From Phycicoccus sp. CSK15P-2 (GTDB lineage Bacteria > Actinomycetota > Actinomycetes > Actinomycetales > Dermatophilaceae), in the NCBI RefSeq assembly GCF_016888005.1, contig NZ_JAFDVE010000017.1, forward strand, positions 1 to 64,000: 64,000 nucleotides of DNA, in the 5' to 3' direction. The translations under genes and the position numbers were made by a program. Every line of letters begins with the position of its first letter. Position 1 is the first letter of the stretch. The notes beneath the pieces were generated by a model. The model made no database searches. It was not told where the DNA came from and saw only the letters and a program-made list of their open reading frames with translations. Shown piece after piece: positions 28,969-33,665 of the stretch.

Positions 28969-30066
28969 ATGCGGGAGATCGAGACCCTGGCCGCCCTCGA
29001 CGCGGCGCTCGACGCCGGGACGCCGCTGCGCGGGCTGCGGCTGCAGGACCTCGACCTCACCGGCCGCGCGGCACGGCTGCTCGGGCGGGACGACGTCGAG
29101 GGCCTCGTCGTCCTCGGCGGCCGGCTGCCGGACGACCTCGACGCCCACCTGCGCTCGCACGGAGCGCTCGTCTTCCCCACCGACCCGCGGGCGCCGGTCG
29201 ACCCCTACCGGGCGCGGCTCTACACGCCGGACGAGCTCTACGACGGTCTCCGTGAGGTCGGCTACGCCGCGACCCCCGACGCCCGGGCCCACGCGTGGTC
29301 CCGCGACGCCGCCCTGGCCCACGACGCGTTCGCGACGCTGCTGCGCGCCATCCACGACGACTCGATGAGCGACGCCCTGACGGACGTCCTCGGGACGACC
29401 CCGGTCGTCGGGGTCATGGGCGGGCACTCGCTCCGGCGCGACGAGGAGGGCTTCGCCCGGGCAGCCGCCCTCGGGCACGCACTGGCAGGGGCGGGCCTCG
29501 TCGTCGCCACCGGCGGCGGACCGGGTGCGATGGAGGCGGCGAACCTCGGCGCCCTCGCCCGGTCCGCGGACGCTCTCGCCGACGGGGTCGAGGCCCTCCG
29601 AGCCGTGCCGTCGTTCGAACCGGACGTCCGCGAGTGGGCCGCGCTCGCCCTCGACGTCCGCCACGGGCTGCTCGACGGCGCCCCGGACGGCTCGGGGGTG
29701 CGCAGCATCGGCATCCCCACGTGGCACTACGGCCACGAGCCGCCGAACGTGTTCTGCGACGGGGTCGCCAAGTACTTCTCCAACGCCATCCGCGAGGACG
29801 GCCTGCTCGCCCGGAGCACCGCAGGGGTCGTCGTGCTCGAGGGGGCGGCCGGCACGGTGCAGGAGATCTTCCAGGCCGCGACCGCCCTCTACTACGGCGA
29901 CCACGAGCGCCCGCTCCCCCGGCTCGTCCTCGTCGGCCACCGGCACTGGTCGCAGGACGTTCCGGTGTGGCCGGCGCTGCACGCGCTCGGGTCGGGCCGG
30001 GCCATGGCCGAGCACGTCCATCTCGTCGACGACCTCGCCGAGGCGGTCGACGTCCTGTCCACCTGA
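28969..30066 (+). CDS. LOG-family Rossmann-fold nucleotide-binding protein
   Basis: A 365-residue protein. An N-terminal extension (about residues 1-140) precedes a LOG/TIGR00725-like Rossmann fold: TPVVGVMGGHSLRRDEEGF, VVATGGGPGAMEAANLGALA and the later LEGAAGTVQEIFQAAT. The last replaces the usual PGGxGTxxE; the glycine-threonine-glutamate core is kept. LOG enzymes hydrolyse nucleoside 5'-monophosphates (cytokinin activation in plants, PpnN in E. coli). The catalytic Arg-Glu set is only partly recognisable. Convergent with the copper monooxygenase gene. Confidence 0.75.
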   Translation: MREIETLAALDAALDAGTPLRGLRLQDLDLTGRAARLLGRDDVEGLVVLGGRLPDDLDAHLRSHGALVFPTDPRAPVDPYRARLYTPDELYDGLREVGYAATPDARAHAWSRDAALAHDAFATLLRAIHDDSMSDALTDVLGTTPVVGVMGGHSLRRDEEGFARAAALGHALAGAGLVVATGGGPGAMEAANLGALARSADALADGVEALRAVPSFEPDVREWAALALDVRHGLLDGAPDGSGVRSIGIPTWHYGHEPPNVFCDGVAKYFSNAIREDGLLARSTAGVVVLEGAAGTVQEIFQAATALYYGDHERPLPRLVLVGHRHWSQDVPVWPALHALGSGRAMAEHVHLVDDLAEAVDVLST

Positions 30067-30090: not shown

Positions 30091-30200
30091 GTCCGCGGGC
30101 GGGACACATGTCCGCGGGCGGGACACATCGGAGCCCGACCGGCCGGGGCACTCGTGCTCGTCCCGACGACGGGTGGGTGGTCGGTGTATCCGGCCCGTCG
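30091..30200. repeat. REP-like palindromic repeats at LOG/monooxygenase junction
   Basis: A 19-base unit, GTCCGCGGGCGGGACACAT, occurs twice in tandem at 30091-30109 and 30110-30128. A facing copy, TGTATCCGGCCCGTCGCG, starts at 30185. The units fit the consensus CGGGCSGGAYACA also seen at 46371 and 58254/58323. The element fills the gap between two convergent genes and may act as a bidirectional terminator. Confidence 0.55.
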
Positions 30201-30219: not shown

Positions 30220-31401
30220 TCAGTCGCGGGTGAGCAGGACGATGCCCAGGCACATCTCGTCGGTCGTCCCGTCACCCCACACGACGTACCGGTCGGGCCG
30301 GCCGTCGAAGGCCGGGAGGCGGTCGCGCAGCGACTGGTCGTGCCGGCAGGTGACGGTGAGCTCGTCCCCCGGCTCGACCCGGACGGGCTCGTCGAGCGGG
30401 ATGCTGCCCTGGTCGTCGAAGTCCCAGCTCGCGACCTCGAGCAGCCGCTGGGCCTGCGGCGTGCCCTTGGCGAGGTCCACGGTGATCTCGCGGCCGAGCA
30501 GGTGCATGTGCCCTGCGACCGCCCGGACCGTGCCGCCGCGGCGGACCGTGCGGGTACAGCTCTGCACCGGACCGGGGTCGACGGGGCCGCAGAGCGCGTG
30601 CAGGAGGTCGGCGGTGGCGACCTCCTCACCGAACCGCTCCTTGACGTCCGCGACGGCGACCCCGCGGGCGCACGGGCCGGCGGAACGACCGCTCCGGCAG
30701 GGCAGCTCGACGGGCGCCGGCAGCAGCATCGTCGCGAGCGGGGTGCGGTCCCCGTCCGCCGCGTCGGAGACCCGCAGCCGCACGGTGCTGCGGTCCGATC
30801 CGGTGCCGCCGAGCAGGTTGTAGTGCATCTGCACGACGAGCCGGGACCCGGCCTCGAGCGGGATGCCGATGTCCTCCGCCATGACCCGCTCCCCGCCGCC
30901 GGGCGCCCAGGCGCCGACCCAGTCGGCGTTGTCGAGGTCGGTCCCGGCCGAGCGGACACCGCTGCCGCCGAAGCACGACCACCCGGGGCCGGGGGCGTCG
31001 GCGTCCAGCCGCTGGGCCACCTCGACGTCCCGGGGCAGCACCGACGAGACGATGACGTGGTGGACGAGGTCGGCGTTGTCCGGCCGGATGTCGACACCGC
31101 TCACGAGCTCGTCGACGTCGAAGCCCGGGTCGACGAGGAAGCACCGGTAGTCGTCGGTGCCCGCCCCGGAGGGTGCCGAGGGCGTGTACTCGACGGGCAG
31201 CCGGAGCTCGACGAAGCGCTCCCCCGGGCGCAGCGGGACGTCGGTGGCCGTCGGCTCCGGTGAGACCGCCGCCGGGTCGACGTGACCCGAGTGCGGCTCC
31301 GCGGCACGGTCCCGCAGGTTCTCCGGCAGGTCCTCGGCCGACGAGCAGCCCGCCGCGAGGAGGAGCACCGTCGCAGCGGCCCCGAGCACCCGGCGTCGCA
31401 C
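30220..31401 (-). CDS. Secreted copper type II ascorbate-dependent monooxygenase-like lipoprotein (PHM fold)
   Basis: A 393-residue lipoprotein (signal peptide, lipobox LAAGC with C19). All six copper ligands of peptidylglycine alpha-hydroxylating monooxygenase can be matched in order: H114 and H115 in DLVHHVIVSS and H193 in VQMHYN (first copper), then H298 and H300 in AGHMHLLGREI and M383 in TTDEMCLGIV (second copper). The DEMC motif is the PHM methionine motif. Cysteines at 87, 143, 235, 244, 271, 282, 352 and 384 could form disulphides outside the cell. The enzyme family hydroxylates C-H bonds using copper, oxygen and ascorbate. Natural substrate in bacteria is unknown. No companion gene lies beside it. 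Confidence 0.8.
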   Translation of the reverse strand: MRRRVLGAAATVLLLAAGCSSAEDLPENLRDRAAEPHSGHVDPAAVSPEPTATDVPLRPGERFVELRLPVEYTPSAPSGAGTDDYRCFLVDPGFDVDELVSGVDIRPDNADLVHHVIVSSVLPRDVEVAQRLDADAPGPGWSCFGGSGVRSAGTDLDNADWVGAWAPGGGERVMAEDIGIPLEAGSRLVVQMHYNLLGGTGSDRSTVRLRVSDAADGDRTPLATMLLPAPVELPCRSGRSAGPCARGVAVADVKERFGEEVATADLLHALCGPVDPGPVQSCTRTVRRGGTVRAVAGHMHLLGREITVDLAKGTPQAQRLLEVASWDFDDQGSIPLDEPVRVEPGDELTVTCRHDQSLRDRLPAFDGRPDRYVVWGDGTTDEMCLGIVLLTRD

Positions 31402-31449: not shown

Positions 31450-32640
31450 TCAGGCCGTGGACGCGGCCAGCTGGCCGCAGGCGCCGTCGATGTCCGACCC
31501 GCGGGTGTCGCGCACCGTCGTCGGGATGCCGTGGGCACGCAGCCGCTCGACGAACTGCTGCTCGACGCCCGGCCGGGACGCGGTCCACCTCGACCCGGGG
31601 GTGGGGTTGAGGGGGATGGGGTTGACGTGAACCCACCCCTTGCCCCGCGCGGCGAGCTTCTCGCCGAGGAGGTCGGCCCGCCAGGCCTGGTCGTTGACGT
31701 CCCGGATCAGGGCGTACTCGATGCTCACCCGGCGACCGGTGGCCTCGTAGTAGCGGCGGGCGGAGTCGATCGCCTCGTCGACCTTCCACCGGGTGTTCAC
31801 CGGCACCAGCTCGTCCCGCAGCTCGTCGTCCGGCGCGTGCAGCGAGAGGGCGAGCGTCACCGGGATGCCCTCGGCCGCCAGCCGGTCGATACCGGGCACG
31901 AGGCCGACGCTCGACATCGTGACGCCGCGCGCCGAGATGCCGAGGCCGGACGGCGGTGGCTCGGTGAGCCGGCGGATGGCACCGATCGCCGCCTTGTAGT
32001 TGGCGAGCGCCTCCCCCATGCCCATGAACACCACGTTGCTCACCCGGGTCGGACCGCCGTTCCCGTCGCCCTCCGCCTCGTCGCCGAGCGCCACTCCGCG
32101 GCCCGCCGGAGCCTGGGGCAGGCCGCCGTGTCGCAACATCCGGGCGGCCGCGACGACCTGCTCGACGATCTCCGCCGCGGACATGTTGCGGGTCAGGCCC
32201 TCCTGCCCCGTCGCGCAGAACGGGCAGTTCATCCCGCAGCCGGCCTGGCTCGAGATGCACACCGTGACCCGGTTCGGGTAGCGCATGAGGACGGACTCGA
32301 CGAGCGCGCCGTCGAAGAGCCGCCACACCTGCTTGACCGTGGCGCCGCCGTCCGCCGTGAGGTGCCGGACCGGGGTCAGCAGGGGCGGCAGCAGGTCGCG
32401 GACGAGGTCGTCCCGCACCGCTGCCGGGAGGTCGGTCATGCCCTCCGGCGTGTCGACGAGCCGGTCGAAGTAGTGCGTCGAGAGCTGGTTGGCGCGGAAC
32501 GCCGGGTGCCCGAGCGCGGTGACGGCCTCGCGGCGTCCGGCGACGTCGAGGTCGGCCAGGTGTCGTGGCGGTTTGCCCCGGCGTGGCGCCGTGAGGGTCA
32601 GCTCGCCGGGGGCAGGGCGGGGGGCGGGCGGCTCGGTCAT
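31450..32640 (-). CDS. rlmN: 23S rRNA (adenine2503-C2)-methyltransferase
   Basis: A 396-residue radical-SAM enzyme that methylates A2503 of 23S rRNA (and A37 of some tRNAs). The SAM cluster motif is [19 protein letters not shown] (CxxxCxxC after Q-A-G). The methyl-carrying cysteine region [19 protein letters not shown] is at the C-terminus, and [15 protein letters not shown]-like sequence follows the cluster. Length is typical. Ends 48 bases from the monooxygenase start, same strand. Confidence 0.95.
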
Positions 32641-32828: not shown

Positions 32829-33665
32829 ATGGGCCTGTTCGACCGTCTTCGTGTCCACTCCGAACGACCCGCGGGTGCTCCGGTCTCCACGACCTTGGCT
32901 CCGCCTCCACCGCTCATGGCGGTTCCCGACGTCGACGACGAGGCGGGGGTGCTCCACGGCGACGTCCGGGCCCACCTCGAGCGACTGACGGAGGCCGCCG
33001 AGACCGACATCGACCGCCTCGACCACTCCGCCTTCGAGGCCGCGCTCACCTCGCGGCTCGTGGGCGCCGAGCGCATCCAGTCCACCGGGCTCGGGTTCAG
33101 CTACGCGTCACCGTTCGCCACGCATCTTCACGAGGTGCTCACCCTCGACCTGCCGACGGCGGTCGTGACCCTCCCGGACGACCGCGTGCAGGAGAGCGGC
33201 ATGCGCCTCCCCAAGCTCATGGACCGGGCAAGGCGCAACCTGTGCACGCTGATGCACAGCGTGCCGGCCGAGGTCATGCGGGTCGGGGACGGCTCGCGGT
33301 CGGTCACCGCGGTGATGAGCGACTCGCCGTACACGGCGTCCTTCGCGCGCTTCCTGGCCGACGCGGTCGAGCTGTGGACGCCCGGCGCCGACCAGGGCGG
33401 CGGCATCGTCTTCGCCCTCCCCCACCGGCACGCCGTGGTCTTCCAGGTGTGCGCGACCCCGCAGCAGACCCGCGACGCCCTCGACCTCGTGCCGCTCCAG
33501 GCCGAGGCGATGCAGGCCGACGGCCTCACACCGGTGTCGCCGCACGTCTACCACTGGCTCGACCGGCGGATCACCTGCCTGACGACCGAGAACACGGACG
33601 GCTCCCTCCGCCTGGGCACGACGCCCGAGCTCGACTCCCTGATGGGTCTGCGCCGCGCCGTCTGA
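32829..33665 (+). CDS. Conserved hypothetical protein
   Basis: A 278-residue soluble protein with no signal peptide. It begins MGLFDRLRVHSERPAG, has a Pro-rich linker (TTLAPPPPLMAVPD), a charged helix HLERLTEAAETDIDRLDHSAFE, then an alpha/beta region with VVTLPDDRVQESGMRLPKLMD and GGGIVFALPHRHAVVFQV. I cannot name a family. Good codon bias and a strong ribosome-binding site (GGAAGGA) argue that it is real. It is single-gene, between divergent rlmN and convergent cdsA, with its own palindrome-covered promoter. Confidence 0.8.
   Translation: MGLFDRLRVHSERPAGAPVSTTLAPPPPLMAVPDVDDEAGVLHGDVRAHLERLTEAAETDIDRLDHSAFEAALTSRLVGAERIQSTGLGFSYASPFATHLHEVLTLDLPTAVVTLPDDRVQESGMRLPKLMDRARRNLCTLMHSVPAEVMRVGDGSRSVTAVMSDSPYTASFARFLADAVELWTPGADQGGGIVFALPHRHAVVFQVCATPQQTRDALDLVPLQAEAMQADGLTPVSPHVYHWLDRRITCLTTENTDGSLRLGTTPELDSLMGLRRAV

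Follow-up and report, generated by a model that had tools for sequence, protein, structure and literature searches.

PHM and DBM are textbook animal enzymes, which make amidated peptides and noradrenaline. The lyase partner of PHM, PAL, has the NHL repeat as its fold unit, and DBH has an N-terminal DOMON domain. We take R240, N316 and Y318 of PHM to be the residues that hold the terminal glycine of the peptide, or substrate carboxylate. The LPMO site is a single copper in a histidine brace. PHM/DBM-type domains of bacteria are, as we understand it, already in Pfam, so the protein described here is not a new kind of protein.

A 2020 review has a table that lists PHM and DBM under eukaryotes only (PMC7435645), and PHM is treated as eukaryotic in the relevant portions of PMC8812541. 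The available excerpts of two further papers (PMC6529398, PMC5461114) hold nothing on bacterial members. We found no paper on a bacterial member among the matches listed by our literature search, which most subscription journals lie outside. In Cellvibrio japonicus, a YceI-like domain and c-type cytochromes are reported to occur together in the protein Cbp2D. The cytochrome domain of this protein, CjX183, when isolated, reduces LPMOs in vitro and sets off the oxidation of cellulose, with less peroxide and damage than ascorbate gives (PMC8981238).

Here we describe a PHM/DBM-type protein encoded in a 64,000-nucleotide stretch of the Phycicoccus sp. CSK15P-2 genome, called the window below, together with its relatives. 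Within the searched literature, a stand-alone lipoprotein clade that has lost the peptide site and a YceI-cytochrome-PHM architecture seem to be new.

The gene and its predicted lipoprotein product

A sequence-only reading of the window had proposed a PHM-like copper monooxygenase made as a bacterial lipoprotein. It placed the gene exactly (Table 1), as a minus-strand frame of 393 residues. The frame starts with GTG and has a second GTG at codon 5. Six close relatives (L002-L007), under starts chosen by hand, all open with M or V followed by RRR, which favors the first GTG. The residues H114, H115, H193, H298, H300 and M383 and the motifs HH, QMHYN, HMH and DEMC are all found as described in that reading, as is the count of eight mature cysteines: the protein contains nine in all, and C19 lies in the lipobox LAAGC (residues 15-19), where lipidation is predicted. 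A lipobox-like motif occurs in 62 of the 69 relatives, whose start codons had been picked with a lipobox in mind, and 63 of 70 aligned rows have a cysteine in the lipobox column. The lipoprotein assignment thus stands, and to judge from these sequence features the window protein is probably exported and tethered to the membrane.

Scans for promoters and terminators found none, and an Rfam scan of the window gave no match at gathering scores. A perfect 19-bp tandem repeat (GTCCGCGGGCGGGACACAT x2) occupies window positions 30091-30128, between the converging SLOG-type and PHM-like genes.

Table 1. Features of the window and of the fusion loci. Window positions are given unless a locus is named.
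Feature	Position	Strand	Basis
CDS, PHM/DBM-type two-copper monooxygenase, predicted lipoprotein, 393 aa	30220..31401	minus	sequence, profiles, fold match
Lipoprotein signal peptide, residues 1-18	31348..31401	minus	sequence, lipobox-like motif in relatives
Lipobox Cys19, predicted lipidation site	31345..31347	minus	sequence, alignment column
N-terminal domain match (Cu2_monooxygen), residues 105-195	30817..31089	minus	below Pfam cut-off; profile alignment to PHM
Predicted CuH ligands H114, H115	31057..31062	minus	70/70 rows; aligned with HH of PHM
Predicted CuH ligand H193 (in Q-x-H-Y)	30823..30825	minus	70/70 rows; aligned with QVHY of PHM
C-terminal domain match (Cu2_monoox_C), residues 287-385	30247..30543	minus	above Pfam cut-off
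Predicted CuM ligands H298, H300 (H-M-H)	30502..30510	minus	70/70 rows; aligned with H-T-H of PHM, DBH
Predicted CuM ligand M383 (in D-E-M-C)	30253..30255	minus	70/70 rows; aligned with DEMC of PHM
Radical SAM protein, upstream neighbor, 48 bp gap	31450..32640	minus	Pfam; context
SLOG-type protein, convergent downstream neighbor	28969..30066	plus	Pfam; context
YceI-cytochrome c-PHM fusion	L092 8293-10446
YceI-cytochrome c-PHM fusion	L093 8858-10969
YceI-cytochrome c-PHM fusion	L094 811-2970
YceI-cytochrome c-PHM fusion	L096 8586-10739
YceI-cytochrome c-PHM fusion	L123 5611-7779
YceI-cytochrome c-PHM fusion	L124 5949-8069
YceI-cytochrome c-PHM fusion	L125 6294-8531
YceI-cytochrome c-PHM fusion	L127 5682-7862
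CcmF, redoxin, CcmH, TPR genes directly upstream of L127 fusion	L127 1422-5677	same strand as fusion

Family and fold

Of the two Pfam profiles expected to match, Cu2_monoox_C did so above its cut-off (E 6.3e-8, 32.7 bits, cut-off 23) and Cu2_monooxygen stayed under its own (E 0.0024, 18.5 bits, cut-off 30), the gathering score in Pfam being a curation threshold. At E <= 1 the N-terminal profile matches 70 of 70 members (best 5.5e-8) and the C-terminal profile 60 of 70. No NCBIfam model matches the window protein; on eight relatives only YceI and cytochrome models do so, all far under cut-off.

A single-sequence search of the PDB with the window protein returned chance matches only, and a profile of close relatives gave weak ones (best E 0.014 for DBH and 0.021 for PHM). 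The profile of 30 diverse relatives matched PHM at E 7.2e-8 and DBH at 7.7e-8 (whole sequence). In the alignment to PHM, HH, Q-x-HY, H-x-H and DEMC each fall on the columns of the PHM ligands; the C-terminal stretch of this alignment is weak alone (7.5 bits). Searched against the PDB, an AlphaFold2 model of the window protein (pLDDT 86.7, pTM 0.83) returned PHM or DBH chains in all of the best 31 rows (E 3.4e-14 to 2.3e-10), as anticipated for a pair of PHM jelly-rolls, and row 32 (E 1.5e-5) was about five orders of magnitude worse. The highest TM seen was 0.72, normalised by target, for PHM 6ala; because this is moderate and the rmsd over both domains is at least 5 Angstrom, the arrangement of the two domains relative to each other is less certain than the fold itself. 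The ligand alignment to PHM and the fold match bear out the PHM-like two-copper fold, and the modelled structure supports membership of the copper type II monooxygenase superfamily (PF01082 + PF03712). One scan for viral relatives confirmed 0 of 8 candidate stretches, and in a BFVD fold search TM was never above 0.35 among the best 50 rows.

Rat PHM (PDB 1phm, 1opm, 6ala) and the window protein share the two-jelly-roll fold and the six ligands, whose order and motifs agree, at 16-18 percent identity in fold alignments. In the profile alignment, window residues C87, C143, C282, C352 and C384 align with PHM cysteines, C235, C244 and C271 lying outside the aligned stretches. Unlike PHM, the window protein is a predicted bacterial lipoprotein. 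Human DBH (PDB 4zel) gave the best fold-search E-value, 3.4e-14, with 18 percent identity to the window protein, and its H-x-H-L-x-GR and later Cys motif align with the window family. Unlike DBH, the window protein has no DOMON match: DOMON is not among the three Pfam families that match it at E <= 10.

Conserved metal sites and a lost peptide site

The relatives were collected as 78 loci (L001-L078), of which L001 is the window itself. L064 (a contig-end copy beside L063), L068 (a partial match, residues 191-392) and six duplicates with identical cores (L011-L014, L020, L077) were dropped from the alignment, leaving 69 relatives. The six ligands and C87, C143, C235, C244, C271, C282, C352 and C384 show no substitution in any of the 70 rows (the window protein and its 69 relatives) or in any of 30 diverse relatives. 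They are also without exception in a wider set of 123 domains, in which HH and [DE]EM[CS] served as cutting anchors and are hence partly constant by construction; the 70-row and 30-row counts are free of this effect. A Gln two residues ahead of H193 is likewise invariant in the 123 domains. These 123 rows come from 125 profile matches (L099, a 208-residue frame, and L170, cut by a contig end, were left out), and 117 of them differ; the tree built from them is unrooted. H354 was considered as a seventh ligand. It is present in 70 of 70 rows of close relatives, but the role was rejected because Trp, Phe or Tyr replaces it in 25 of the 123 domains.

The conservation bears on the idea that the protein is a non-enzyme, a copper-binding or copper-storage lipoprotein that has retained the fold. 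This idea draws on a patchy spread (the gene is in 7 of the 12 genomes of the genus and in 22 of 81 from another family) and on there being no partner or substrate known. Against it, both full sites, the CuM-marking Met and the Gln before H193 are exceptionless in the 123 domains, and we regard it as improbable.

The positions that correspond to PHM R240, N316 and Y318 were located relative to H-x-H and the ligand Met. Across the 123 domains the first is never Arg (Ala in 99), the second never Asn (Leu in 112, Phe in 8, Tyr in 3) and the third never Tyr. With the ligands conserved and the glycine-holding residues replaced, the metal sites have been kept and the animal peptide site has not. The description "PHM-like" therefore holds for the fold and the copper-site ligands and fails for the peptide-binding residues, found in 0 of 123 domains. 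A genuine bacterial PHM, which would hydroxylate the C-terminal glycine of exported peptides ahead of breakdown to amides, would have a fold and copper ligands identical in kind to those seen here, but would be expected to carry Arg, Asn and Tyr at these positions, which 123 of 123 domains lack. The genome of Phycicoccus sp. CSK15P-2 also has no NHL repeat at E <= 1, a search in which 10 of 14 control genomes match, two of them over cut-off. We consider a genuine PHM very improbable, since the absence of the three residues makes peptidylglycine an unlikely substrate; glycine-extended peptides are probably not what the protein acts on.

Fusions with YceI and cytochrome c domains

A sample of the phylum Actinomycetota yielded 18 proteins. 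In 11 of them (L092-L097, L123-L127) the frame that encodes the copper domain also has a CxxCH motif, upstream of that domain; the other seven are stand-alone, one of them incomplete. In the alignment of the 11 fusions, the haem Cys pair, the haem His and an M-P-P-W motif, which we take to be the usual place of the haem Met ligand, are invariant. The cytochrome matches in Pfam are all under cut-off, and the cytochrome part of a fusion model has low confidence. A YceI domain is over the Pfam cut-off in 8 of 11 fusions. With a profile of all 11, E. coli YceI is matched at E 7.3e-9. A model of one fusion matches solved YceI structures: that of E. coli, with a TM of 0.79 (normalised by target), and the polyisoprenoid-binding domains 2x32/2x34, that of Saccharophagus degradans included. 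The YceI-bearing fusions have about 700 residues and a predicted N-terminal membrane helix, and the three without a YceI match have a lipobox-like start by eye.

The fusions share the copper domain of the window protein, with 31-36 percent identity in the six that were aligned, and keep its six ligands and eight cysteines. They differ from it by the c-type cytochrome (11/11) and YceI domain (8/11) and by a Trp in place of H354 in all 11. An upstream CxxCH is present in neither the window protein nor 106 other stand-alone frames (66 from named genomes, 29 from the class sample and 11 from small genomes). In the unrooted tree the fusions, which have long branches, are split from every stand-alone row by a branch with 100/100 support; since they are a separate branch, the stand-alone clade need not share their donor.

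In the Cbp2D system a YceI-like domain and a c-type cytochrome are tied to the reduction of a secreted copper monooxygenase (PMC8981238), and the fusions would resemble it in this respect. The difference is that Cbp2D serves an LPMO, whose copper site is of another kind and which is not part of the same chain. With the modules of Cbp2D placed ahead of a PHM-type domain in a single polypeptide, the analogy suggests that the haem may feed the coppers and that YceI may hold a quinone or isoprenoid.

Several neighbors of fusion genes are single cases, none common to several fusions. The L127 fusion gene begins 4 bases past a run of CcmF, redoxin, CcmH and TPR genes, which is a cytochrome c biogenesis run. 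A glutaredoxin gene follows the L094 fusion after one base, and the L092 fusion has a peroxiredoxin gene three genes upstream. An EXPERA (EBP) domain gene on the minus strand (L096 7841-8593), seen once, overlaps the end of the fusion gene by 8 bases and might point to a substrate that resembles a sterol or isoprenoid.

Gene neighborhoods of the stand-alone copies

Around the window gene, Pfam assigns radical SAM (presumably rlmN), SLOG-type, cytidylyltransferase, RRF, class III aminotransferase, AsnC regulator, aldehyde dehydrogenase, phosphoribosyltransferase and solute-binding proteins, and one neighbor has no match. A 249-residue protein without a Pfam match is encoded between the radical SAM and cytidylyltransferase genes (window 32916-33665, plus strand), and its family is present in 7 of 67 loci, the window included.

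We surveyed these 67 loci, window included, with Pfam names taken from single representatives. In 18 of the 67, those of Intrasporangiaceae type, the gene is preceded on its own strand by a radical SAM gene (the next gene in 16, the second in 2). Nocardioides-type loci have a HIT gene directly upstream (31/67) and PhoH and YbeY genes downstream (32/67, next gene in 23). Eight Terrabacter-type loci have a PfkB kinase gene directly downstream, and in six of the eight a gene for a glycerophosphate-oxidase-like flavoprotein, which reads as metabolic, lies directly upstream. No electron carrier recurs near the stand-alone genes among the 67 loci, where this flavoprotein gene is the closest redox gene, and the small-genome copies and the fusions have no recurrent partner either, closely related pairs aside. 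Because the neighbors vary by lineage, the neighborhood was ruled out as a guide to substrate, and the earlier remark that no neighbor reveals the substrate was correct.

Distribution

The genome of Phycicoccus sp. CSK15P-2 (3.9 Mb, 45 contigs) has one copy, its sole match to the family. Phycicoccus sonneratiae is the nearest named relative by core identity (76 percent). With its own genome included, the gene is present in 10 of 39 near genomes and 7 of 12 genomes of the genus. It was found in at least 43 of 394 genomes of a class sample, where 11 of the 17 matched sequences without a locus id were read. The 18 proteins of the phylum sample come, by profile, from at least 16 of 396 genomes; the Pfam model finds 12 of 396, nine of them over cut-off. 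In both samples at most five first-look candidates per genome were scored, so that the genome counts are lower bounds. A family of small genomes (f109, 0.9-2.2 Mb) has the gene in 22 of 81 members, patchily even within one genus. The patchy spread across genus, class, phylum and small-genome family marks it as an accessory gene. Among control genomes, 0 of 14 match over the Pfam cut-off and three match below it at E <= 1.

Some f109 genomes of 1.3-1.6 Mb (e.g. L160, L161, L162, L168) keep the gene, at different sites. Two stand-alone PHM-like genes adjoin on the minus strand in one small actinobacterial genome (L102 8085-9251 and 10093-11244). One locus (L103, NZ_LT559118.1) lies in an 11.85 Mb Nonomuraea gerenzanensis record that is titled plasmid I and is chromosome-sized.

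Proposed function and electron source

On balance we lean toward an exported two-copper monooxygenase that takes its electrons from the membrane, through a quinol or a c-type cytochrome, rather than from ascorbate. The lipoprotein would be anchored in the cytoplasmic membrane, facing outward, and folded as two PHM-type jelly rolls. It would bind two copper ions, CuH via H114, H115 and H193 and CuM via H298, H300 and M383. The analogy with PHM and DBM points to hydroxylation of an sp3 C-H bond in a substrate outside the cytoplasm, with O2 and two electrons consumed. These electrons would most likely come from a quinol or a c-type cytochrome; an example of the latter is the one dihaem cytochrome that the genome encodes, which reads like QcrC. 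The one YceI protein of this genome has no export signal by eye, which speaks against the route. We infer copper binding, catalysis and the electron route, as we do the use by the stand-alone form of the route of the fused form. The weakest link is the separate membrane-bound donor that would serve the stand-alone window protein.

An alternative donor is ascorbate or another small reductant, driving a monooxygenase of a small molecule (phenol, amine or lipid) without a dedicated cytochrome. All frames read from the window clade are stand-alone, no conserved electron carrier adjoins the stand-alone genes and the match to DBH is as good as that to PHM, all of which would fit such an enzyme. Related bacterial proteins, however, bear a haem donor domain, and we know of no ascorbate synthesis in these bacteria, which we count against it; we judge this alternative the less likely of the two.

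The reading with a membrane donor can be extended, more tentatively, to an actinobacterial branch of the PHM/DBM enzymes that does without ascorbate and draws on the respiratory chain. Electrons would pass from quinol (at YceI) to a c-type cytochrome and on to CuH/CuM, in one fused chain in some lineages and to a stand-alone lipoprotein in Phycicoccus, Nocardioides and others, acting on a membrane- or wall-associated, possibly isoprenoid, substrate. We hold this extension to be possible, at rather less than even confidence.

The YceI-cytochrome c-PHM fusions are a finding in their own right, beyond the window protein. The bacterial set has kept all the copper ligands and lost the animal substrate site, and it includes cousins with a built-in haem donor. 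With such proteins one can ask where the coppers get their electrons, on which substrate the ancestor acted, and whether this chemistry requires ascorbate or animals took up its use later.
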